A stretch of 64,000 bases of DNA. It comes from Ruegeria sp. PrR005. Its GTDB lineage: Bacteria > Pseudomonadota > Alphaproteobacteria > Rhodobacterales > Rhodobacteraceae. A model generated the notes under the pieces. That model was not told the DNA's origin. It made no database searches and saw nothing but the letters and a program-made list of their open reading frames with translations. A program made the position numbers and the translations under genes. Where the stretch lies: assembly GCF_010500245.1 (NCBI RefSeq), contig NZ_JAAGOX010000011.1, positions 620,001-684,000 on the forward strand. The letters are read 5' to 3'. Of the stretch, positions 14,291-52,624 are shown in pieces; within the stretch, counting starts at the first letter, position 1, and every line of letters starts with the position of its first letter.

Positions 14291-15346
<1,056 letters not shown>

Positions 15347-15400
15347 GGCAGCTCGGAAAACACCGGCACAATCCGGTTTTTCCAATGACAGATTTGCGAT

Positions 15401-15429
15401 GGGCCCGGAAATCCGGGCCCTTTTCCTTT
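15401..15429 (+). terminator. Intrinsic terminator after mdh
   Basis: Perfect 8-bp stem GGGCCCGG / CCGGGCCC with an AAAT loop followed by TTTTCCTTT, 54 bp after the mdh stop. Confidence 0.9.
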
Positions 15430-15440
15430 GGCAGCCCGGC

Positions 15441-16028
15441 CTACGACCTGACGAGCGCCAGGGCGATCACCCGCTGCATCTCGGCCAGGTAATCCGCCGC
15501 GCTCCAGCCGTTTTCCAGAACGCAATGCGCCCAGCCATCCATGTTGAGCAGCGTGAAATACAAGTCCGCCGCCCGCTCCTCGGAAAGGTGAACCAGCAGA
15601 TCGCCATCGGCGCGCAGGGCCGCAACCGCCGCGGCACAGCCCTCCTTCATGGCGCGAATGCGGTCGTCCCATGCGGCCCTTGCCTCCTCGTCGGCCGGTC
15701 CCAACCGCTCCAGCGCCTGTTTGAGCGGATAGATCGCCGGGAAGAACTCCAGCATGGCCGTGGTATAGGCCGCCAGACGGCTGCGCCCGTCCGGCGCCGC
15801 GCGGCTGGGGGCAAGCCGGGCATCGACCTCCAGCGTATCGCCAAAATGCAAGATCGCCGCGATCAGCATGTCGGTTCGGTTGGTAAAGTGGTCATAGACC
15901 GTCTGCCGCGTGACACCGGCGGCCCGTGCCACGTCGATCATCCGCATCGGGGAGCCTTCGGGGGCCATCAGCAGCGACAGAACCGTTTCCAGCAGCAACA
16001 GGCGGGTTTGTTCCCGTTTATTTGACAT
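15441..16028 (-). CDS. TetR/AcrR family transcriptional regulator
   Basis: 195-residue repressor. The N-terminal TetR helix-turn-helix reads LLLLETVLSLLMAPE, then MIDVARAAGVTRQTVYDHFTNRTDMLIAAI. The C-terminal ligand domain is typical in length but not assignable to a substrate. It starts at MSNKREQ; there is no clear ribosome site, so the transcript may be leaderless or the start may be slightly upstream. It is divergent from a DUF4345 gene, with palindromes in the 81-bp gap, so it probably represses both. Confidence 0.88.
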   Translation of the reverse strand: MSNKREQTRLLLLETVLSLLMAPEGSPMRMIDVARAAGVTRQTVYDHFTNRTDMLIAAILHFGDTLEVDARLAPSRAAPDGRSRLAAYTTAMLEFFPAIYPLKQALERLGPADEEARAAWDDRIRAMKEGCAAAVAALRADGDLLVHLSEERAADLYFTLLNMDGWAHCVLENGWSAADYLAEMQRVIALALVRS

Positions 16029-27294: not shown

Positions 27295-28455
27295 ATGGTC
27301 GATCAGGTCAAGCTCGCCGCCTTTTCAAGCTGGCTGATGGCCGGCGCACAACCGCCCAAGCCCATCGAGGCCGTTGTCGAGGAAAGCGCCGCCCGTCTGC
27401 GCGCGGCCGGTCTGCCGCTTGACGTGCTGATCGTCAACGGCCTGTTCATCCACCCCGATATCCGTGGCATCCAGATCCGCTGGACCGCACGGAACGGCGT
27501 GCGCCGGGTCACCTTCCGCCACGCCTATTTCGAAAGCAGCGATTTCGCCGCGACCCCGATCTCGCGCACCATCGCGACCGGGCGCTCCATGCGCTTCGAA
27601 CTCGCGCGCCAGGACCCTGGGACCGATACCGCCTATGCCGCCGCGTTCCGGGCCTCGGGCTATACCGACATCCTGGTGTTGCCGCTCATCAACTTTGACG
27701 GCACGATCTCCGGCTGCATCGAGTTTGCCACCCGGACCGCCAAAGGGTTCACCCAAGAAGACATTACCGCCCTGCGCCGGGTTCAGGCGCCGCTGGCCCG
27801 GATGAAGGAGTTCTTCACCGAACGGTTCGACAAGCAGATCACGCTCGCCACCTATGTCGGCGACGCCACCAGCCGCAAGGTGCTGAGCGGCCAGATCGTC
27901 CGCGGCGACGGCGAGACCATTTCCGCCGTCATTCTCTTTGCCGATATCAAGGGCTTCACCGCACTGTCGAACCGCACCGCCTCGGCCGAGGTGCTGCAAG
28001 TGCTCAATCGCTTCTTCGATGTTATCGACAACGCCGTGACCCGCAACAATGGCGAGATTCTCAAGTTTCTCGGCGACGGGGTGCTGGTGATCTTTCCCAC
28101 GCCCGACGACCTCACCGCGCAAGAGGCCGCCGCCCAAAGCGCGATGGCCGCCGTCACCGAGGCCCGGGAAACGCTTGCGGAACAAACAGGCCCGTTACAG
28201 ATCGCCTTTCGCGCGGCGCTTCACATGGGCGATGTGTTCTTCGGCAATGTCGGCAGCCGCAACCGGCTCGACTTCACCGCCATCGGCCCAGCGGTGAACC
28301 TCTGCGCCCGCATGCTGCACGAGGCCTCGTCGCGTGACGCCAGAACGCTGTGCTCGGCGCAGTTCCGGACCATCGCCATCGGCCTCACCGGCACCCCCTT
28401 CACCTGCGAGGTCGCCGGTTTCGAGAAACCGGTCGAATTCCACGTCCTGGATTGA
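27295..28455 (+). CDS. Class III adenylate/guanylate cyclase with N-terminal sensor
   Basis: 386-residue soluble protein. The N-terminal ~190 residues look GAF-like (LPLINFDGTISGCIEFATR, then TQEDITALRRVQAPLARMKEFF). The catalytic domain starts near residue 210: VILFADIKGFTALSNR (first metal Asp), ILKFLGDGVLVIF (Lys normally used for adenine recognition and the second metal Asp), and LDFTAIGPAVNLCARML (adenine-recognition Asp, transition-state Asn and Arg). All key residues are present, so it is probably active and makes cAMP. ATG follows GGGGGAAAGGGG. Confidence 0.85.
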   Translation: MVDQVKLAAFSSWLMAGAQPPKPIEAVVEESAARLRAAGLPLDVLIVNGLFIHPDIRGIQIRWTARNGVRRVTFRHAYFESSDFAATPISRTIATGRSMRFELARQDPGTDTAYAAAFRASGYTDILVLPLINFDGTISGCIEFATRTAKGFTQEDITALRRVQAPLARMKEFFTERFDKQITLATYVGDATSRKVLSGQIVRGDGETISAVILFADIKGFTALSNRTASAEVLQVLNRFFDVIDNAVTRNNGEILKFLGDGVLVIFPTPDDLTAQEAAAQSAMAAVTEARETLAEQTGPLQIAFRAALHMGDVFFGNVGSRNRLDFTAIGPAVNLCARMLHEASSRDARTLCSAQFRTIAIGLTGTPFTCEVAGFEKPVEFHVLD

Positions 28456-36714: not shown

Positions 36715-36776
36715 GTTGCGCGCTTATCCCGAAACGCCCCGCCAGATCAATCGGTCCCGCAATTTTGAGTATTCAT

Positions 36777-36868
36777 GACCAGAAAGAAGCCCAAACGCGA
36801 CCCTGCTTCTTTCTGGTCGAAAATACCACCGGGGGAGACGCGCAAAGCGCGACGGGGGCAGCGCCCCC
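36777..36868. repeat. Large hairpin and roseobacter-type intergenic element, copy 3
   Basis: GACCAGAAAGAAGC (36777-36790) and GCTTCTTTCTGGTC (36805-36818) form a perfect 14-bp stem, continuing into CGAAAATACCACCGGGGG and then GGGGGCAGCGCCCCC (36854-36868). The last hairpin touches the stop codon of the minus-strand DUF2834 gene, so it may terminate that transcript before lysA. Confidence 0.65.
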
Positions 36869-37182
36869 TATCGCGACCGCAGGAACAGGTAAAGCGGCAA
36901 GCCGCAGCTCACCCCAATACCGAACGTGGCCGGCACAGCCAGCAGACCGGCCCAGTTGCGGCTCCGCCAGGTCTCGGCCAGAACCCAGACCGTCAGCGCC
37001 ACGGCCGAGATCGTCAGGTCCCAGACCAGCCCGGAACTGGCGGCATTGGCGTGCCAGGCATCAACCATCGCCCCCAGGTCGACGCCGTTTTCGGCGAACC
37101 ATTGCAGGAAATACCACATGGGATGGATCGCCCCCCAGATCGCGAGGGCGAGAAAGATCAGGCGCAACGGGGTCAAGGTCAT
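36868..37182 (-). CDS. DUF2834 membrane protein
   Basis: 104 residues with three or four predicted helices (4-22, 48-68, 76-98). The start LRLIFLALAIWGAIHPMWYFL and the ...WDLTISAVALTVWVLAE motif match the DUF2834 family. Between the small lipoprotein and lysA. Function unknown. Confidence 0.75.
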   Translation of the reverse strand: MTLTPLRLIFLALAIWGAIHPMWYFLQWFAENGVDLGAMVDAWHANAASSGLVWDLTISAVALTVWVLAETWRSRNWAGLLAVPATFGIGVSCGLPLYLFLRSR

Positions 37183-43003: not shown

Positions 43004-43117
43004 GTTACGTTATGTCAAGGGCGCTTCATCGGGGAATAAGCTGCGCTCCAGAGTCGACATATGACTCGTTTGCCGTCAGATTTCCCACCAGACCATGACG
43101 GCAAAGGATCGGATCAC

Positions 43118-44293
43118 ATGACCAACATCGTAATTGCATCGGCCGCCCGTACCGGCGTCGGCAGCTTTGGCGGATCTTTCGCAAACACCCCCGCCCATGA
43201 CCTCGGCGCCGCAGTGCTCGAAGCGGTCGTGGCACGGGCCGGCATCGACAAGGCCGAGGTGAGCGAAACCATCCTCGGTCAGGTCCTGACCGCGGCCCAG
43301 GGCCAGAACCCCGCCCGCCAGGCCCATGTCAACGCGGGCCTGCCCAAGGAAAGCTCGGCCTGGGGCATCAACCAGGTCTGCGGCTCGGGCCTGCGCGCCG
43401 TGGCGCTGGGTGCCCAGCACATCCTGCTCGGCGACGCCGACATCGTCATCGCCGGTGGTCAGGAAAACATGACCCTCTCGCCCCATGCCGCGCATCTGCG
43501 CGCCGGTCACAAGATGGGCGACATGAAATACATCGACACCATGATCCGCGACGGGCTGTGGGACGCGTTCAACGGCTATCACATGGGCCAGACCGCCGAG
43601 AATGTCGCCGAACAGTGGCAGATCAGCCGCGAGATGCAGGATGAATTCGCCGTCGCCTCGCAGAACAAGGCCGAAGCCGCGCAAAAGGCCGGCAAGTTCG
43701 CCGACGAGATCGTGCCCTTCGTGATCAAGACCCGCAAGGGCGACATCGTGATGGACAGTGACGAATACATCCGTCACGGCGCCACCATCGAGGCGATGCA
43801 GAAACTGCGCCCCGCCTTCACCAAGGACGGCAGCGTCACCGCCGCCAATGCCAGCGGCCTGAACGACGGCGCCGCGGCCACCCTGCTGATGACCGCCGAG
43901 AACGCCGAAAAGCGCGGGATCGAGCCTCTGGCCCGCATCGCCTCTTACGCCACCGCCGGGCTCGACCCGTCGATCATGGGCGTCGGCCCGATCCACGCCA
44001 GCCGCAAGGCGCTGGCCAAGGCCGGATGGAAGGTCGAGGATCTGGACCTGGTCGAGGCCAACGAAGCCTTTGCCGCCCAGGCCTGCGCGGTGAACAAGGA
44101 CATGGGCTGGGATCCGGCCATCGTCAACGTGAACGGCGGCGCCATCGCCATCGGTCACCCGATCGGCGCCTCGGGCTGCCGCGTCCTGAACACCCTGCTC
44201 TTCGAGATGAAGCGCCGCAACGCCAAGAAGGGTCTCGCGACCCTCTGCATCGGTGGCGGCATGGGCGTCGCCCTCTGTGTGGAGCGTGACTGA
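43118..44293 (+). CDS. phaA: Acetyl-CoA C-acetyltransferase
   Basis: Condenses two acetyl-CoA to acetoacetyl-CoA, the first step towards polyhydroxybutyrate and also of the ethylmalonyl-CoA pathway. 391 residues: catalytic Cys in [26 protein letters not shown] with catalytic His, and [11 protein letters not shown] with the second Cys. Upstream AAAGGA. Followed by a terminator and then phaB, which has its own upstream region. Confidence 0.96.
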
Positions 44294-44316
44294 TCGCCCG
44301 AACCGGCCATAGGAAC

Positions 44317-44342
44317 AGGGCGCCGTCAGGCGCCCTTTTTCG
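44317..44342 (+). terminator. Intrinsic terminator after phaA
   Basis: 7-bp stem GGGCGCC / GGCGCCC with a GTCA loop followed by TTTTTCGT, 24 bp after the phaA stop. Confidence 0.88.
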
Positions 44343-44481
44343 TGGCATTCCAAGAACATGCTGCACCTGCGACAATATTGTTACTCTGCAATGCGGAAAT
44401 TCTCCGCGAAACAATGTTGCGCATTTCAACCCCGCAGCGTAACACCATTATCAAGCCAATTCAGATCTGGAGGATTCTTCA

Positions 44482-45204
44482 ATGGCACGTACAGCACTCG
44501 TCACCGGCGGTTCGCGCGGCATCGGCGCCGCGATTTCCAAGGCGCTCAAGGCCGAAGGCTACAATGTCGCCGCCACCTATGCCGGCAATGACGAAGCCGC
44601 AGCCGCCTTCACCGCCGAAACCGGCATCAAGACCTACAAGTGGAACGTCGCCAGCTACGAGGAAAGCGCCGCAGGCATCGCCAAGGTCGAGGCCGATCTG
44701 GGCCCGATCGACGTCGTGGTCGCCAACGCAGGCATCACCAAGGACGCGCCCTTCCACAAGATGACCCCGGAACAGTGGCAGCAGGTGATCGACACCAACC
44801 TCACGGGCGTGTTCAACACCGTTCACCCGGTCTGGCCCGGCATGCGCGAGCGCAAGTTCGGCCGCGTCATCGTGATCTCGTCGGTCAACGGTCAGAAAGG
44901 CCAGTTCGCCCAGGTCAACTATGCCGCGACCAAGGCAGGCGACATCGGCATCGTCCGCTCCCTGGCCCAGGAAGGCGCCCGCGCCGGCATCACCGCCAAC
45001 GCGGTCTGCCCCGGCTATATCGCAACCGAAATGGTCATGGCGGTGCCGGAAAAGGTCCGCGAGTCGATCATCGCCCAGATCCCCGCAGGCCGCCTGGGCG
45101 AGCCCGAGGAAATCGCCCGCTGCGTGGTCTTCCTGGCCTCCGACGACGCCCAGTTCATCAACGGCTCGACCATCTCGGCCAACGGCGCCCAGTTCTTCGG
45201 CTAA
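44482..45204 (+). CDS. phaB: Acetoacetyl-CoA reductase
   Basis: NADPH-dependent SDR that reduces acetoacetyl-CoA to (R)-3-hydroxybutyryl-CoA, the PHB precursor and ethylmalonyl-CoA pathway intermediate. 240 residues: cofactor motif ALVTGGSRGIGAAISKAL, NAGI at the strand-4 position, SSVNGQKGQFAQVNYAATKAG with catalytic Ser and the Y-x3-K, and the C-terminal ...NGAQFFG end typical of PhaB. SD GGAGGATTC before ATG. The upstream 188-bp gap has TGC-rich stretches and a 10-bp palindrome ACAATATTGT. Confidence 0.96.
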   Translation: MARTALVTGGSRGIGAAISKALKAEGYNVAATYAGNDEAAAAFTAETGIKTYKWNVASYEESAAGIAKVEADLGPIDVVVANAGITKDAPFHKMTPEQWQQVIDTNLTGVFNTVHPVWPGMRERKFGRVIVISSVNGQKGQFAQVNYAATKAGDIGIVRSLAQEGARAGITANAVCPGYIATEMVMAVPEKVRESIIAQIPAGRLGEPEEIARCVVFLASDDAQFINGSTISANGAQFFG

Positions 45205-45226: not shown

Positions 45227-45252
45227 AGGCCGCCCTCTGGGGCGGCCTTTTT
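45227..45252 (+). terminator. Intrinsic terminator after phaB
   Basis: 9-bp stem AGGCCGCCC / GGGGCGGCCT with a short loop, followed by TTTTTCG, 22 bp after the stop. Confidence 0.9.
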
Positions 45253-45325: not shown

Positions 45326-48300
45326 ATGACCGGAGCACAGGATTTGGCCCTTCACCCGCCTCCAGACACATCGCCTGCCCTGGGCCGCGAAGAGGCGCTG
45401 CGCGGCATCCTCGATATCATCAGCACCTCGCGCGCCGATACCGGGCCCGTGTTCGAACGGATCCTGGAAAACGCCTGCCAGCTTTGCGCGGCCCCCTTTG
45501 CCGGTCTCTACCTCGTCGACCCCTCCGCCACCCGCGCGGATCTGGTCGCCAGCCTGGGCGCCCGGCCCGAATATCTCGAACGGGCCCTGACCCGCTGGCC
45601 ACTGGCCAACCCGGCCTCGATCCCAAGCGCGATCAATTCCGGCACCGTGGTTCAGATCCCCGACCTTGCCGATACCGACCTCTACCGCGCGGGCGACCAG
45701 CGCCGGGTCGAGGCGGTGGATATCGAAGGCATCCGCACCTTTTTGGCTGTCCCCCTGATGCAGGGCACCCGCGCCATCGGCGCCATCGGCCTCTACCGGC
45801 GCGAGGTGACCCCCTTCACCCCCGACCAGATCGCGCTGGTGGAAACCTTCGCCACCCAGGCCGTCATCGCCATCGAGAACGTGCGCCAGTTCCAGGAAGT
45901 GCAGGAACGGTTGGAGCGGGAACAGGCCGTCAAGAATATCCTGAGGGTGATCTCGGAATCGCCGGACGACGAACAACCCACGTTTGAGGCGATCCTCGAC
46001 AGCGCCACACGGCTTTGCGGTACACCTTATGCCTCGCTGGTTCTTGGGCGCAAAGGCGATGCCGCACAAATGATGGTGGCGCACCGACATTCCACCCCCG
46101 AAACGGTGCAGCACTATGCTGACGGCAAGGTACCGATGGACCCGCGGGATTCCCTCGCGGCGCAGGCCATCCTCGAAGGCCGGACGATCCTCGTGCCCGA
46201 CATGGCCGCAACCCAGCAATACAAGGAGGGGCATCCGCGCTTCAAGATGCTGGTGGACGACCAGGGCCTCAGGACCAACCTGTTCGTGCCATTGATCTCG
46301 CCCACCGGAGGGATCGGCTGTTTCATCCTGTGGAAAAAAGAGCCGGTGCCGTTTACCGAGGACCAGATCGCGCTGGTCGAAACCTTCGCCTCTCATGCCG
46401 TCATCGCCATCGAGAACGTGCGCCAGTTCCGCGAGGTGCAGGAAAGGCTGGAACGGGAAACCGCCCTGGCCGAAATCCTCAAGGTCATCAGCCAAAGCCG
46501 CGATGACGAATGGCCGGTCTTCGACGTCATCCTCAAAAGCGCCGCGCGCCTGTGCCATGCGCCCCTGGCGGATCTGGATATCGTCGACCCTGACGGTGCC
46601 CACCTGCGCGAGGTCGCGACCTTCGGCAATTCGAAACGCGTCATCCCGTCAGATCGCTGGGTCTGGCCGATGGATGCCCCCAACTATCACGTCGAGGCGG
46701 TCCGCACCGGCAAGGTCATCCATATCCACGATCTGCGCGAATCCGAGAACTACCGCTCCGGCAACCCGATGACGCTTGCCGCCGTGGATACCGAGAACAT
46801 GCGTACTCTGCTGGCCGTGCCGCTGCGCTCGGGCGACCGGGGCATCGGCTGCCTGGTGCTGTTTCGGCAAGAGGTGCGCCCCTTTGCCCCGGACGAGATC
46901 GCGCTGGTCGAAACTTTCGCCGCCCAGGCGGTGATCGCCATCGAGAATGTCCGCCAGTTCCGCGAGGTCCAGACCCGGCTGGAGCGAGAGACCGCGACCC
47001 GCGACGTTCTTGAAGTCATCAGCCGATCGCGCGACGACGATCAGCCCGTGTTCGACGTGATCCTGGACAAAGCCCTGAGCCTGTGCGACGCGCCCTTCGG
47101 GTTTCTGGTTCTGCCAAACCGGGATCGCACGCAACTTGAGATCAAGGCGTGGAGCGGAATGCACTCCGACATGATTGACTGGTTGCGCGAGAACCCGTTT
47201 CCGCTTGACCCGGAGCGGCTCGCCGTGGCCCGCGCCATCAACGAGTGCAAGGCGCAGCATGTTCCGGATGCACAGGGGTCCGAAATGTACCGCGCCGGGG
47301 AAATGTACCGGCGCAAGATGGTCGACGAAGAAGGCTTTCGCAGCTTCATCTCCGTGCCCCTGGTCAGCAAAGGCATCGGCATTGGCGCCTTCACGCTCTA
47401 CCGGCGGGAAAAGCGCCCGTTTTCCCCCGGTGAAATCGCCCTGGTCGAAACCTTCGCCGCCCAGGCGGTCATCGCCATCGAGAATGTCCGCCAGTTCCGC
47501 GAGGTCCAGACCCGTCTCGAACGGGAAACCACCACCAAGAACATCCTCAGCGTCATCTCGCAATCCCGCGACGACGAAACACCGGTCTTCGACGCCATAC
47601 TCGACGGCGCGGCGCGGCTTTGTGATGCACCGCTGGCCTACATCCGCCTGATCACGCCGGATGCGGCCGCTCTGGAACTGGTCGCGTTCCACGGCACCTC
47701 CTTGGAATTCGTCGCGGTGATGAAGTCCAGCCCCCTACCACTCGACCCGACACAGTCGGACACGGCGCGCGCGGTCACGGAAAGGACCGTCGTACATGTC
47801 GAGGACCTGGCCGCCGGCCCGCTCTACGCCGCAGGCCAGACCCTGCGCGTGCATGCTGTCGAGACCGAGGGGATGCGAACCCTGCTTGTGGTCCCGCTCA
47901 CCAGCGGCGCGACGTGCCTCGGAACCATCTCGCTCTATCGCCGCGAAGTGGCGCCGTTTTCCGATGACCAGATCGCCCTGGTTCAGGCCTTTGCCGCCCA
48001 GGCCGTCATCGCCATCGAGAATGTCCGCCAGTTCCGCGAAGTACAGCAGCGTTTGCGGCGCGAGCGCGCCTCGGCCGAAATTCTCGAAGTCATCAGCCAG
48101 AGCCGCGAGGACGAGAAACCGGTCTTCGAGGCGATCCTCGAAAACGCCTGTGCCCTGTGCAACGCGCCGCTCGCCGGGCTGATCCTGGGGACCCGGCAGG
48201 ATGCGGCCCAGAGACTGGCCGCACACAGAGGCATGTTTCCCGCCGCGATCGAACTCTACGACACGGGCCGGATGCCGATGGATGCCAGCCTGTCCTACGC

Positions 48301-50353
48301 GGCAAGATCCATCATGGAAAACCGACTGATCTCGTTCGAGGACATGGGGCAAAGCGAGCTTTATCAGGCAAACAGCCCGGTTGTGCGCGCGATGGTGGAC
48401 GAATCCGGTGTCCGCAGCGTTCTGTTCGTTCCCCTGACCAGAGGCGGCGAGGGGATCGGAAACCTGACCCTGTTCCGGCGCGAGGTGAAACCTTTCGACC
48501 AATCGGAAATCGCGCTGGTCGAAACCTTCGCCGCCCAGGCTGTGATCGCCATCGAGAACGTCCGCCAGTTCCGCGAAGTGCAGGACAGGCTGGAGCGGGA
48601 AAAGGCCAGCGGCGAAATCCTCGGCGTCATCAGCCAGAGCCGCGCCGACGAGACCCCGGTATTCGACGCCATCCTGGCAAACGCCTGTCGGCTCTGCGAT
48701 GCACCGCTCGCCTTCATGAGTATCGTGGACGACGAGGGCACGCATTTCCGCGTCCCCGCCCATCGCGGGGCCGGTCCTGAAATGGCGCGGGTCTGGAACA
48801 CACAGGTCGAACCAATCCAAGGTTCGGTCCTCACCACCTCTCAAGCGATCACAGAGCGGCGCATCATCCAGATAGAGGATCTGTCGGCCCTGGACCTGCC
48901 TGACACCGCCGAAGGCCGCCGCGCGCAACTGGCAGAGCTGGAAAAGATCCGCTCGTATCTGGTGATCCCGCTGATCCGGGGCACGCGCGCAATCGGAACC
49001 ATCAACCTCTACCGCCGCGAGATCCACCCGTTCACGCCTGACCAGATCGCCTTGGTCGAAACCTTCGCCGCGCAGGCGGTGATCGCCATCGAAAACGTGC
49101 GCCAGTTCCGCGAGGTGCAGGAGCGGCTGGAACGCGAACGCGCCTCGGCCGAAATCCTCGAAATCATCAGCCAGAGCCGGGACGATGAAAGCCCGGTTTT
49201 CGAAGCGATCCTCAGTCGCGCCGCCCGCTTGTGCAGCGCAGTGGGGGCGACGCTGTTGCTGCTGAATGAAAACCGGCACCTGCTGAAACTGCGGGCTGAA
49301 TGGAGCACGCTGGAAAACGACCTGGAAACCGACGAGGTGTTCCTGGATGTCGACGGAGAGTCGCTGGCGGCGGAAGCTGTCCGAACCGGCAAGTCCCGGG
49401 CCGTGGGCGATCTGACCAAAGAAGCAAGCTATACAAAAGGCGATACGCTGACCCGCCGTTTCGTGGACACAACCGGCATTCGCTCGATGCTGTCGGTTCC
49501 GTTGCTGTTCAACGGCGAGGCGGTGGGATGCATCGACCTGTTTCGCCACGAGGCCGCTTCGTTCCAGCACCGTGATATCGCCCTCGTCGAAACCTTCGCC
49601 GCCCAGGCCGTCATCGCCATCGAGAACGTGCGCCAGTTCAAGGCGCTCGAAGCGCTGAACGCCGAGTTGGAGACCCGGGTCGAGGATCAGGTGGGCGAGA
49701 TCGAACGTATGGGCCGCCTGAAACGCTTCCTGCCCGCCGCCGTGGCCGACACCGTGGTCTCTTCGGGGTCAGAGAAGATGCTGTCCAGCCACCGCGCCCT
49801 GTTGGGGGTGCTGTTCTGCGACATTCGCGGCTTTACCGCCTTCTGCGAAACCGCCGAACCCGAAGAAACCATCGAGGTGCTGCAAACCTATCACCAGGAG
49901 ATGGGTAAGCTGATCAACGCCCATGGCGCCGGGGTCGATCACCGGATGGGCGACGGCATCATGGTGCTGTTCAACGATCCCCTCCCCTGCGACGATCCGG
50001 CGGGCGAGGCGGTAAGGCTGGCGCTGGCCATGCGCGACCGCATGGCCGATCTCTGCCGCGGCTGGAAACGGCTGGGGCACCGGCTGGGCTTCGGCGTTGG
50101 TGTCGCTATGGGATATGCGACCGTCGGCATGGTCGGCTACGAGGGGCGGTTCGACTACACCGCCTCGGGCACTGCCGTGAACCTCGCCGCCCGTCTCTGC
50201 GACGAGGCCGAGGACGGAGAGATCCTGCTCAGCCCCCGCGCCTCGATCGCGGTCGAGGATGACTACGCCGTCGAATCGAAGGGCGAAGTCACCCTCAAGG
50301 GCATTCGCGAACCGGTCGAGATCTTCCGCCTAAAGCGTATCCAGTTTTCATAG
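45326..50353 (+). CDS. Class III nucleotide cyclase with eight tandem GAF domains
   Basis: 1675-residue protein. Eight GAF-type units of about 179 residues each run from near residue 10 to 1440. Each unit starts with a short ISQSRDDE-type entry, has an LFxLCxAPxA core, and ends with ALVETFAAQAVIAIENVRQF followed by a REVQERLERE coiled linker. A helical segment ERMGRLKRFLPAAVADTVVSSG precedes a class III cyclase domain at about 1490-1670, with the metal Asp in FCDIRGFTAF and MGDGIM, and YTASGTAVNLAARLC (Asn, Arg). The usual substrate-specifying Lys three residues before GD is His here. No membrane segment, so cytosolic. No N-terminal partner is apparent in the operon. Confidence 0.92.
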   Translation: MTGAQDLALHPPPDTSPALGREEALRGILDIISTSRADTGPVFERILENACQLCAAPFAGLYLVDPSATRADLVASLGARPEYLERALTRWPLANPASIPSAINSGTVVQIPDLADTDLYRAGDQRRVEAVDIEGIRTFLAVPLMQGTRAIGAIGLYRREVTPFTPDQIALVETFATQAVIAIENVRQFQEVQERLEREQAVKNILRVISESPDDEQPTFEAILDSATRLCGTPYASLVLGRKGDAAQMMVAHRHSTPETVQHYADGKVPMDPRDSLAAQAILEGRTILVPDMAATQQYKEGHPRFKMLVDDQGLRTNLFVPLISPTGGIGCFILWKKEPVPFTEDQIALVETFASHAVIAIENVRQFREVQERLERETALAEILKVISQSRDDEWPVFDVILKSAARLCHAPLADLDIVDPDGAHLREVATFGNSKRVIPSDRWVWPMDAPNYHVEAVRTGKVIHIHDLRESENYRSGNPMTLAAVDTENMRTLLAVPLRSGDRGIGCLVLFRQEVRPFAPDEIALVETFAAQAVIAIENVRQFREVQTRLERETATRDVLEVISRSRDDDQPVFDVILDKALSLCDAPFGFLVLPNRDRTQLEIKAWSGMHSDMIDWLRENPFPLDPERLAVARAINECKAQHVPDAQGSEMYRAGEMYRRKMVDEEGFRSFISVPLVSKGIGIGAFTLYRREKRPFSPGEIALVETFAAQAVIAIENVRQFREVQTRLERETTTKNILSVISQSRDDETPVFDAILDGAARLCDAPLAYIRLITPDAAALELVAFHGTSLEFVAVMKSSPLPLDPTQSDTARAVTERTVVHVEDLAAGPLYAAGQTLRVHAVETEGMRTLLVVPLTSGATCLGTISLYRREVAPFSDDQIALVQAFAAQAVIAIENVRQFREVQQRLRRERASAEILEVISQSREDEKPVFEAILENACALCNAPLAGLILGTRQDAAQRLAAHRGMFPAAIELYDTGRMPMDASLSYAARSIMENRLISFEDMGQSELYQANSPVVRAMVDESGVRSVLFVPLTRGGEGIGNLTLFRREVKPFDQSEIALVETFAAQAVIAIENVRQFREVQDRLEREKASGEILGVISQSRADETPVFDAILANACRLCDAPLAFMSIVDDEGTHFRVPAHRGAGPEMARVWNTQVEPIQGSVLTTSQAITERRIIQIEDLSALDLPDTAEGRRAQLAELEKIRSYLVIPLIRGTRAIGTINLYRREIHPFTPDQIALVETFAAQAVIAIENVRQFREVQERLERERASAEILEIISQSRDDESPVFEAILSRAARLCSAVGATLLLLNENRHLLKLRAEWSTLENDLETDEVFLDVDGESLAAEAVRTGKSRAVGDLTKEASYTKGDTLTRRFVDTTGIRSMLSVPLLFNGEAVGCIDLFRHEAASFQHRDIALVETFAAQAVIAIENVRQFKALEALNAELETRVEDQVGEIERMGRLKRFLPAAVADTVVSSGSEKMLSSHRALLGVLFCDIRGFTAFCETAEPEETIEVLQTYHQEMGKLINAHGAGVDHRMGDGIMVLFNDPLPCDDPAGEAVRLALAMRDRMADLCRGWKRLGHRLGFGVGVAMGYATVGMVGYEGRFDYTASGTAVNLAARLCDEAEDGEILLSPRASIAVEDDYAVESKGEVTLKGIREPVEIFRLKRIQFS
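45863..49639 (+). repeat. Eight-copy tandem repeat within the GAF-cyclase gene
   Basis: The DNA encoding VIAIENVRQF occurs at 45863, 46400, 46931, 47468, 48005, 48542, 49079 and 49610. Spacings are 537, 531, 537, 537, 537, 537 and 531 nt, i.e. 179 or 177 codons. Copies 1, 2 and 8 are identical over 30 bp, and the others differ at only a few third positions, whereas the GAF cores between them differ widely. Confidence 0.9.
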
Positions 50354-50720: not shown

Positions 50721-50797
50721 AGTTTCTCTTGACTTGACCCCAATATGACTCCAGAAAATCAAAGTCACAAACGAGAGTTTCTCTTTCTTCAGTCAAG
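50721..50797. promoter_or_regulatory. Divergent control region with repeats before the LysR gene
   Basis: AT-rich 113-bp gap between the 36-residue ORF and the LysR gene. The 10-bp direct repeat AGTTTCTCTT occurs at 50721-50730 and 50776-50785, and CTTGACT (50728-50734) / AGTCAAG (50791-50797) form an inverted repeat. Typical layout for autoregulated LysR genes; binding is inferred. Confidence 0.5.
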
Positions 50798-50810
50798 ATT
50801 TTCTTACTCC

Positions 50811-51761
50811 ATGATCGACCGCCTGCCGCCCCTCACCGCCCTGCGCGCCTTCGAGGCCGCCGCCCGGCACATGTCCTTTGCCAAGGCTGCCGAAGAGCTG
50901 AATGTCACCCCTGCCGCGCTGTCGTTTCAGATCAAGTCGCTGGAGGAGCACGTCGGCCAACCCCTGTTCCGCCGCCTCAACCGTGCGGTCGAACTCACCG
51001 AGATCGGCCGCGCTTTGTCTCCCGGAATAAGTGATGGTTTTCAAATACTTACAGATACATGGCGCAGTGTTCGGCGGATGCAGGACAATACCACCCTGAC
51101 CGTCACAGCCGGCCCCGCGCTCACCGCAAAATGGCTGGCGCCCCGTCTCTATGACTTTGCCCGTAAACACCCCACGATCGATCTGCGCTTCTCGGCAACC
51201 CTGCGCGTTATGGACCTCGCGCGCGAGGATGTGGATGTCGCGATCCGCTTCGGCTATGGCCTTGATGACGAAGGACTTTATTCGCTCCCGGTGCGTAAGG
51301 AATGGCTTACCCCGGTGATGTCGCCCGAGCTTGCCGAACGCTACACGACCCCCGAAAGCCTGATCGAAGCCCCCCTCATCTTCGACGATTCCATCGCCTT
51401 CCTCCGCCCGCCCGTCGACTGGCCCGTCTGGTTCCGCGCGGTCGGCATCTCCTTTACCCCCACACACGGCACGCATTTTTCCAACGCCGACCACGCCGTC
51501 GATGCAGCCGTTGCAGGCGCGGGTGTGGCGCTCGCCAGAAGAGCGATGATTATCAAGGACTTGGAAGAGGGTCGCCTGGTCGCACCCTTCAAGACCGCGA
51601 TTGAATCGCAGGGGCGTTTCCGCTTCCTTTGCCTGAAAGGTGCCGAGACCCGCCCCCAGATCGCCGCCTTTCGCGACTGGTTCATGGCCGAGATTGACAA
51701 GACCGCGCATATCTCCGACGCCTTCACCATCATACCTATCGAAGAGATCGCGCCGCAATGA
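50811..51761 (+). CDS. LysR family transcriptional regulator, GcvA-like
   Basis: 316-residue activator/repressor. N-terminal winged HTH MIDRLPPLTALRAFEAAARHMSFAKAAEELNVTPAALS with the GcvA-type start PPLTALRAFEA; then LysR substrate-binding domain. The start MIDRLPP is preferred; the open frame runs 22 codons further up into the control region. Its stop overlaps the EamA start (ATGA), suggesting it controls that exporter or is cotranscribed with it. Not the beta-lactamase type since no such gene is nearby. Confidence 0.88.
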   Translation: MIDRLPPLTALRAFEAAARHMSFAKAAEELNVTPAALSFQIKSLEEHVGQPLFRRLNRAVELTEIGRALSPGISDGFQILTDTWRSVRRMQDNTTLTVTAGPALTAKWLAPRLYDFARKHPTIDLRFSATLRVMDLAREDVDVAIRFGYGLDDEGLYSLPVRKEWLTPVMSPELAERYTTPESLIEAPLIFDDSIAFLRPPVDWPVWFRAVGISFTPTHGTHFSNADHAVDAAVAGAGVALARRAMIIKDLEEGRLVAPFKTAIESQGRFRFLCLKGAETRPQIAAFRDWFMAEIDKTAHISDAFTIIPIEEIAPQ

Positions 51762-52624
51762 CCCGCATCCGCGCCACCGCCATCGGCTTTGTCGCCGTCC
51801 TTCTGTGGGCCTTGCTGGCCCTGCTCACGGTTGGATCAAGCCCCACGCCGCCACTGTTGCTGAACGCGATCTGCTTCACGATCGGCGGCACGCTCGGGCT
51901 GATCTGGACGGCTGCAACCGGCGGCCTTGGTCAGTTGCGCGGAGTACGGTGGCAGGTCTATGCTTTTGGAACGATTGGTCTTTTCGGCTACCACGCGCTG
52001 TATTTCTCGGCCCTGCGGCTGGCCCCTGCGGCCGAGGCGGGGTTGATCGCCTATCTCTGGCCCTTGCTGATCGTGCTCTTCTCGGGCCTGCTGCCGGGCG
52101 AACAATTGCGACGCGGTCATTTCCTGGGCGCTTTGGTGGCCTTTGCCGGGGCCGCACTGATTATCACCGGCGGCGGAGGACCGGGGTTCAGCACGGCTTA
52201 CCTGCCGGGATACGGCCTGGCCCTGCTCTGCGCCCTGACCTGGTCGGGATACTCGGTCCTGTCGCGCCGCATCGGAGACGCGCCCACCAGTTCGGTCGCG
52301 GTGTTTTGCCTGGCCACTGCCGCGGCCTCGTGGCCGCTACATTTCGCCCTGGAAACAACGGCTTGGCCGCAGGGCGCGCTCGGCTGGGCCGCCACAATCG
52401 GCCTCGGCCTTGGGCCGGTGGGCCTTGCGTTCTATGTCTGGGATATCGGGGTCAAGCGTGGGGACATCCAACTGCTGGGCACCAGTTCATATGCGGCCCC
52501 GCTCTTGTCTACGCTTGTGCTGGTTCTGACAGGGATCGCGGCGCCCAGCTGGACACTGGGCCTGGCCGCGATCCTGATCACCGGCGGCGCGCTGCTGGCA
52601 GCGCGCGCCAGCTTTGCGAATTAG
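51758..52624 (+). CDS. EamA/DMT family exporter (YddG-like)
   Basis: 288 residues with ten predicted membrane helices in two EamA repeats (about 1-135 and 145-285). The N-terminus (ATAIGFVAVLLWALLALLTV) and the second-half AILITGGALLAARA fit DMT exporters; the YddG aromatic-amino-acid exporters are the nearest by memory. Overlaps the LysR gene by 4 nt. Its last 4 nt overlap the convergent YdcH-type ORF. Confidence 0.85.
   Translation: MTRIRATAIGFVAVLLWALLALLTVGSSPTPPLLLNAICFTIGGTLGLIWTAATGGLGQLRGVRWQVYAFGTIGLFGYHALYFSALRLAPAAEAGLIAYLWPLLIVLFSGLLPGEQLRRGHFLGALVAFAGAALIITGGGGPGFSTAYLPGYGLALLCALTWSGYSVLSRRIGDAPTSSVAVFCLATAAASWPLHFALETTAWPQGALGWAATIGLGLGPVGLAFYVWDIGVKRGDIQLLGTSSYAAPLLSTLVLVLTGIAAPSWTLGLAAILITGGALLAARASFAN

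Follow-up and report, generated by a model that had tools for sequence, protein, structure and literature searches.

The eight-GAF cyclase gene

The window, by which we mean the whole 64-kb stretch of DNA that was analysed, carries a gene for a protein of 1675 amino acids that we call GAF8-cyclase. The gene and its surroundings are listed below; + is the forward strand, type letters refer to the typing of GAF cores described further on, and matches are to the corresponding arrays of Ruegeria sp. XHP0148 and Ruegeria marina.

43061-45204, +: conserved upstream neighbours, thiolase and SDR reductase (synteny)
45227-45248, +: terminator-like hairpin 3' of the SDR reductase gene (stem of 9 bp, 8 of them G-C, followed by a T run)
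45326-50353, +: GAF8-cyclase gene, 1675 aa, ATG start (open reading frame and Pfam profile matches)
45386-45916, +: GAF unit 1, type B; matches R. marina unit 1 of 7 (the pair W.1 and G002.1 at 98.5/100; type B overall forms no clade)
45830-45895, +: first of eight near-identical inter-GAF helix linkers (residues 169-190)
45917-46453, +: GAF unit 2, type C; nearest members at only 50% core identity (clade 96.3/100)
46454-46984, +: GAF unit 3, type F; matches XHP0148 unit 2 of 6 (clade 98.9/100)
46985-47521, +: GAF unit 4, type N; matches R. marina unit 2 of 7 (clade 100/100)
47522-48058, +: GAF unit 5, type O; matches R. marina unit 6 of 7, core dS 0.13 (clade 100/100)
48059-48595, +: GAF unit 6, type A; the largest type, counting 11 members of which 3 are from histidine-kinase arrays (clade 98.9/100)
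48596-49132, +: GAF unit 7, type E; recurs at varied positions (clade 98.1/100)
49133-49684, +: GAF unit 8, type P, adjoining the cyclase; matches XHP0148 unit 5 of 6 (clade 100/100)
49691-50350, +: last part of the signalling helix, then the class III cyclase catalytic domain (PF00211 match at residues 1494-1669)
50745-52624, +: conserved downstream neighbours, LysR regulator and EamA transporter (synteny)

An earlier note on this DNA had described a single soluble protein in which eight GAF units of equal size, with uniform linkers and divergent cores, feed one cyclase domain. Profile searches bore this out. The Pfam models PF01590 (GAF), PF13185 (GAF_2) and PF13492 (GAF_3) each matched eight stretches of the protein, which passes the gathering score (E = 9.5e-113, 1.4e-116 and 1.9e-76), so the count did not fall below eight, the outcome that the note had named as refuting it. 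PF00211 (Guanylate_cyc) matched once, at residues 1494-1669 (E = 5.1e-20). The units start at residues 21, 198, 377, 554, 733, 912, 1091 and 1270, a spacing of 177-179 residues, and their pairwise identity is 38-53%. Their C-terminal helix, IALVETFAAQAVIAIENVRQ, is 88-100% identical among the eight units, whereas the middle of the core is only 11-30% identical. The seven linkers after the first start at residues 348, 525, 704, 883, 1062, 1241 and 1418. At the DNA level, the repetition appears as a 127-nt family of eight copies spaced 531/537 bp apart. The maximum Kyte-Doolittle value over all 19-mers of the protein was 1.58; therefore it has no evident membrane span. Three long minus-strand open reading frames (481, 347 and 611 aa) across the gene were taken as probable high-GC shadows.

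The structure prediction that the note had proposed as a check was run for unit 6, and the AlphaFold model (45 sequences) was a GAF fold with a pLDDT of 92.8. Foldseek matched this model with assorted GAFs, including the cAMP-bound GAF 5w10, the heme GAFs of DosS/DosT and 1ykd. A model of units 7-8 plus the cyclase reached a pLDDT of 72.6, with low confidence in the cyclase part (residues 368-465 mostly below 50). It has a 46-residue helix from unit 7 to unit 8 and a 52-residue helix from unit 8 towards the cyclase. In this model the inter-GAF linker is part of a long helix.

Passages of PMC4411481 describe the NKFDE motif as conserved in most characterised cNMP-binding GAFs. Our own pattern for this motif had no match in any of the eight window units, and cyclic-nucleotide sensing, as judged by the motif, was rejected. 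In every one of the eight window units, the second helix ends with an LC motif whose Cys lies at about unit residue 34; this Cys recurs in at least 90% of 45 aligned units.

The cyclase domain

In an alignment of 27 homologues, both metal Asp residues, the Asn and the Arg were kept in every sequence. The Asp position of the substrate pair was Thr in all 27, and the Lys position was His in 24, Leu in two and Thr in one. We take the roles of these aligned residues to be those of a metal-binding Asp pair, an Asn/Arg transition-state pair and an Asp/Lys substrate pair. Class IIIb adenylyl cyclases have Thr or Ser in place of the adenine-binding Asp, and keep the Lys of the substrate pair. GAF8-cyclase has the Thr and lacks the conserved Lys, and it was therefore assigned to class III only, on the PF00211 match together with the metal Asp pair and the Asn/Arg pair.

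The closest solved structures were CyaB of Pseudomonas aeruginosa (3r5g, E = 9.6e-32), the bacterial adenylate cyclase 2w01, the phytochrome-cyclase fusion 6fht and the cyanobacterial CyaC (1wc0, E = 6.9e-19). Both 3r5g and 1wc0 also have Thr at the Asp position; unlike them, the window enzyme has His for the Lys of the substrate pair, and its sensors are different.

The residues of the domain are compatible with catalysis, for which the substrate may be ATP or GTP. One could argue that the output is not an adenylate cyclase in practice, and is instead a guanylate cyclase or a non-catalytic regulator. The replaced Lys would agree with that. However, the metal and transition-state residues are kept throughout the alignment, Thr at the Asp position recurs in the aligned CyaB and CyaC, and dN of the cyclase domain between the window and XHP0148 is only 0.016, far below its dS of 0.28. 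We consider this alternative decidedly unlikely.

Relatives and copy number

The window genome (G000; 5.07 Mb in 57 contigs) has one GAF array, one single-GAF paralogue and 20 other cyclase-like matches. The paralogue (contig C55, 428 aa) is 74% identical to GAF8-cyclase over residues 1381-1670. A second class III cyclase lies within the window at 27295-28455 on the forward strand (386-aa open reading frame, PF00211 E = 6e-15), with a GAF_2 match slightly below the cut-off. On contig C56, a cyclase-like stretch at positions 36767-37072 has two in-frame stops and is possibly a decayed cyclase gene.

The 27 homologues, the window protein included, come from Ruegeria, Shimia, Tateyamaria, further members of the family and, in a few cases, other Alphaproteobacteria. 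Eight have one GAF, seven have two, five have three, one has four, two have five, two have six, one has seven and one, the window protein, has eight; these counts come from our own unit HMM and may be low, as stretches before the first unit (e.g. in L044 and L081) lay outside the Pfam scan. The earlier note had stated that most bacterial GAF-cyclases have one or two GAF domains; 15 of these homologues do, and the other 12 have three to eight.

With the last-GAF half plus the cyclase as the query, 14 of 394 family genomes matched at 1e-80 (G000 included; the 394 are a sample from a larger group). Among 385 genomes of the class, 12 matched at 1e-70; identity exceeded 70% only in G000, G082 and G475 and was 47-53% in the other nine. 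The core of unit type A was found in 8/394 family genomes and that of type E in 4/394, with G000 counted in both and R. marina, which carries both types, outside the sample. Four records were left out of the counts: L031 and L032 (duplicates of R. marina and XHP0148), L039 (29% identity) and L104 (added after the type set had been chosen). Cyclase matches without a corresponding GAF array were dropped before counting.

One locus in three Ruegeria genomes

In the window genome, in Ruegeria sp. XHP0148 (G001) and in R. marina (G002), the GAF-array cyclase is flanked by an identical gene set. Upstream are a nitronate monooxygenase, a thiolase and an SDR reductase; downstream are a LysR regulator, an EamA transporter and, farther off, a GHMP kinase. 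We read the thiolase as phaA-like and the reductase as phaB-like. Among the three genomes, the thiolase, reductase, LysR and transporter are 90-100% identical and the GHMP kinase 75-85%.

The hairpin upstream of the cyclase gene suggests that this gene may be transcribed on its own. Seven terminator-like sites were found in the 64-kb window, where 5.9 were expected, so the hairpin is weak evidence when taken alone. An operon with the thiolase-reductase pair is unlikely with this hairpin lying between them, although such sites occur in near-chance numbers. No sigma-70-like promoter was found (0.9 expected).

At this shared locus the array has eight GAFs in the window genome, six in XHP0148 and seven in R. 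marina. Core identities between the three arrays are bimodal, with matches at 59-93% over a background of 18-43% (up to 49% against G003). Window units 1, 4, 5, 6 and 7 correspond to R. marina units 1, 2, 6, 7 and 3, and window units 3, 6, 7 and 8 correspond to XHP0148 units 2, 3, 6 and 5. In the neighbour alignments of the pairs examined, identity drops around the linker where the type that follows differs. The same syntenic locus therefore differs between the genomes in both the content and the order of its sensors, as expected of a cassette-exchanging array.

All three assemblies are drafts (57, about 60 and about 50 contigs, in the same order), and repeated linkers might have caused units to be misordered during assembly. 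Such an artefact would not account for the differences in content, which go beyond order. Moreover, the linkers are imperfect repeats of about 66 bp, shorter than usual reads, the reading frames are intact, and the single-contig genomes G082 and G168 also hold arrays of differing length and content. We give this explanation almost no weight.

Types of GAF cores and their order

We typed 128 units from 32 proteins (27 cyclases and five histidine-kinase arrays) by single linkage at 50% core identity, which gave 24 types and 44 singletons. The order of types is B C F N O A E P in the window (unit 2 being barely typed, at 50%), B N E - - O A in R. marina and K F A - P E in XHP0148. All eight window cores were found elsewhere as types, often at another position. 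Type A occupies positions 6/8, 3/6, 7/7, 1/1, 2/2, 2/5, 1/3 and 1/4 in cyclases and 1/14, 1/9 and 2/8 in kinases. Type E is at 7/8 in the window, 6/6 in XHP0148, 3/7 in R. marina, 2/3 in G304 and 1/8 in a histidine kinase of G009. The unit next to the cyclase is of type P in the window, E in XHP0148 and A in R. marina.

A maximum-likelihood tree of the cores recovered 21 of the 24 types as clades (B, D and T were the exceptions), and in none of the 24 multi-unit proteins did the protein's own units form a clade. Recent tandem duplication of units was rejected, since the cores are old types common to several genera. Type C occurs twice in G003, by chaining only.

These patterns might also be explained by an old array with differential loss. 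A large ancestor would have held all the types, sometimes doubled, and the lineages would have dropped different copies, with no traffic of cassettes. Co-occurring types were in concordant order in 35 of 56 comparisons, the adjacency of O and A is common to the window and R. marina, and the lengths range from one to eight GAFs, all of which would agree with such a history. However, the other 21 comparisons were discordant, and conflicts of order require duplicates that were later lost in every lineage, yet no within-protein pair among 365 reached 50% core identity (maximum 45.7%). By type pair, the conflicts among the orthologues numbered 2/10 between the window and R. marina, 1/6 between the window and XHP0148, and 1/1 between XHP0148 and R. 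marina. Type E takes part in every one of them; thus the transposition there may be the story of one cassette, and the remaining differences are differences of content.

Age of the shared cores

Between the window and XHP0148, dS was 0.07-0.24 for four flanking genes and 0.28 for the cyclase. The shared cores were older than both: 0.44 for P, 0.68 for A, about 0.95-0.98 for E and 1.00 for F. This age difference is hard to reconcile with loss from an old array. The comparison with R. marina was different. The flanks had dS values of 0.16-0.72 and the cyclase 0.36; type O, at 0.13, was lower than the cyclase and every flanking gene tested, and the other four shared cores, at 0.52-0.76, were taken as lying inside the flank range. 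Age alone therefore indicates replacement only against XHP0148, and the agreement of core and flank ages for four of the five types shared with R. marina is what an old array would predict.

Type E of the window had a dS of 0.80 to its counterpart in G304a, a member of another genus in which the cyclase is saturated, compared with about 0.95-0.98 and 0.76 to the two sister species. Type E cores from another genus and from a histidine kinase are no more distant than those from the sister species, which also argues against the old-array history. Weighing both sides, we regard that history as unlikely, though deserving more weight than the other alternatives to cassette exchange discussed here. 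As a control, the single-GAF paralogue (records L046, L047 and L048) was of type L in each of the three genomes, with a dS of 0.28 to XHP0148, like that of the cyclase, but of 1.45 to R. marina, where the array cyclase has 0.36.

Selection on the cores

Same-type cores among the three orthologues had dN/dS values of 0.10-0.36 in 11 pairs and are under purifying selection. The type B pair that crosses to a kinase (W.1-hkG278.1) had a value of 0.58. Types A, B, C, E and F each have 6 to 36 characteristic residues at strand, helix and loop positions. In all five types examined, these residues are kept across genera, and in A, B and E across effectors as well. From GAF topology, we infer that they may line a ligand pocket.

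These data bear on the idea that most of the GAFs bind nothing and merely lengthen the helix or hold partners, their diversity being drift. The absence of NKFDE from all units and the conservation of the linkers far above that of the cores would suit such spacers or scaffolds. Purifying selection on the cores and the persistence of type-own residues across genera and effectors would not, and we think a spacer role improbable, a little more so than an output other than adenylate cyclase. The suggestion in the earlier note that each unit could bind a different ligand gains indirect support from the separate core types, their own residues and purifying selection.

DNA of the linkers

At linker positions with the same amino acid, the codons were identical in 77% of unit pairs, compared with 52% expected from codon usage in the rest of the gene (reached in 0/2000 simulations). 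The cores showed no excess (47% against 45%), and the N-terminal helix showed a small one (z = 2.7). The linker excess had z > 2 in 10 of 12 arrays of at least four units, the exceptions being G003 (z = -0.7) and hkG267 (z = 1.3). It was also present between genera, at a smaller size (0.60 against 0.40 expected between the window and G267). When codon usage of the thiolase and reductase served as the null, the excess fell to z = 2.4 (19/2000); thus part of the likeness of the linker DNA is due to codon bias at conserved sites.

Linker codons were as often identical between the three genomes as within each of them (0.74-0.81), and concerted evolution confined to a single gene was therefore rejected as the sole reading. 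The linker data would fit a shared pool of cassettes, with no need for genome-specific gene conversion, and the linker DNA is a plausible site of recombination.

GAF arrays of histidine kinases and rhizobial plasmids

Five family genomes, including R. marina, encode proteins with 8, 8, 9, 11 and 14 GAFs that end in a kinase-like part. In each case, the next gene has a receiver-like N-terminus and a cyclase domain. In two of the kinases Pfam found GAFs, HisKA, HATPase and two receivers, and in their two neighbours a receiver and a cyclase; the remaining three arrays were classed by similarity alone. The 14-GAF protein (3038 aa; L101, 5536-14652, forward strand) is from the single-contig genome G082 and adjoins a REC-cyclase-like gene. 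In R. marina, an 11-GAF hybrid kinase with two receivers (L043, 6895-14352) lies beside a REC-cyclase (14662-15699, both on the forward strand). R. marina carries a cyclase array and a kinase array, so both designs occur in one genome. Types A and E are common to direct cyclases and hybrid histidine kinases, as supported clades.

We also found GAF-array proteins in rhizobial plasmid records (L105-L111), with four GAFs in six records and five in one. Where the records are annotated, in three cases, the genes after the array encode a response regulator and a cyclase; the annotations name one array as a histidine kinase and give one cyclase a receiver domain. The last two positions of these arrays were colinear in 7/7 (77-96% identity), which indicates that the method finds colinearity where it is present. 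The N-terminal positions vary between species, and two related units (about 70-76% alike) are present in both orders. Judging from these sequences, N-terminal change in GAF arrays may be more general than the family of Ruegeria.

Comparison with known systems

Anabaena CyaB1/CyaB2 (1ykd, at rank 34 in the Foldseek result for the type A unit) likewise join an N-terminal GAF tandem to a C-terminal class III cyclase. They have two GAFs, whereas the window enzyme has eight, none of them with NKFDE, in a set that varies between orthologues. Passages of PMC4411481 report that the CyaB2 GAFs were shown to bind cAMP. The multi-GAF hybrid histidine kinases (8-14 GAFs) and the rhizobial arrays (4-5) resemble the window enzyme in tying long GAF arrays to a cyclase output; the kinase arrays differ from the direct cyclases in that their output, judging from the domains, would pass through a phosphorelay. 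According to passages of PMC1592074, the S-helix joins sensor domains to catalytic domains, NMP cyclases included, and coiled coils between GAFs are poorly conserved in sequence. The helix between sensor and catalytic domain is the point of likeness. The difference is that the inter-GAF helices of the window enzyme are nearly identical. Among the matches listed from open-licence PMC literature (titles and the starts of abstracts), we found none on eight-GAF cyclases or on the exchange of GAF cassettes.

A model of the array

GAF8-cyclase is probably a soluble class III cyclase that takes several inputs. Its array would be made up of interchangeable GAF cassettes on a near-identical helix, in a set that changes fast in evolution. 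Eight GAFs of different types on long helices would converge on one C-terminal cyclase, which most likely makes cAMP as a dimer. Each GAF most likely dimerises along the helix, as in tandem-GAF enzymes. The ligand or redox state of a single GAF would shift the shared helix and tune the output, and the helix that sets the cyclase dimer would add up the ligand states of several units. We infer recombination at the linkers, distinct ligands, signal integration, the dimer and the cAMP product from the sequences.

The cores would be drawn from a repertoire common to genera of the family and, in part, to the hybrid histidine kinases beside a REC-cyclase. They could be gained, lost, replaced and moved between arrays, the simplest route being homologous recombination at the helix-coding linkers. 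Since the C-terminal helix hardly varies from unit to unit, a given unit may precede any other unit or the cyclase, and inputs could be swapped without disturbing the output.

Taken by itself, a cyclase with eight GAFs enlarges an architecture that is already known. More tentatively, we see a possible case of natural sensor-cassette exchange, with a GAF pool indifferent to the effector, a standardised helix as the connector and near-identical coding DNA as the site of recombination. The locus, and different outputs, would then be re-equipped on the time scale of species divergence. How an existing output gains new inputs in bacteria is commonly deduced from domain shuffling across long evolutionary times. 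At this locus, a change of inputs seems to be visible between sister species, and related copies exist in other genera and in histidine kinases. Anyone searching for GAF ligands could take the types as a set of independent sensors to begin with, and designers of synthetic sensors could use the uniform helix as a ready-made connector.
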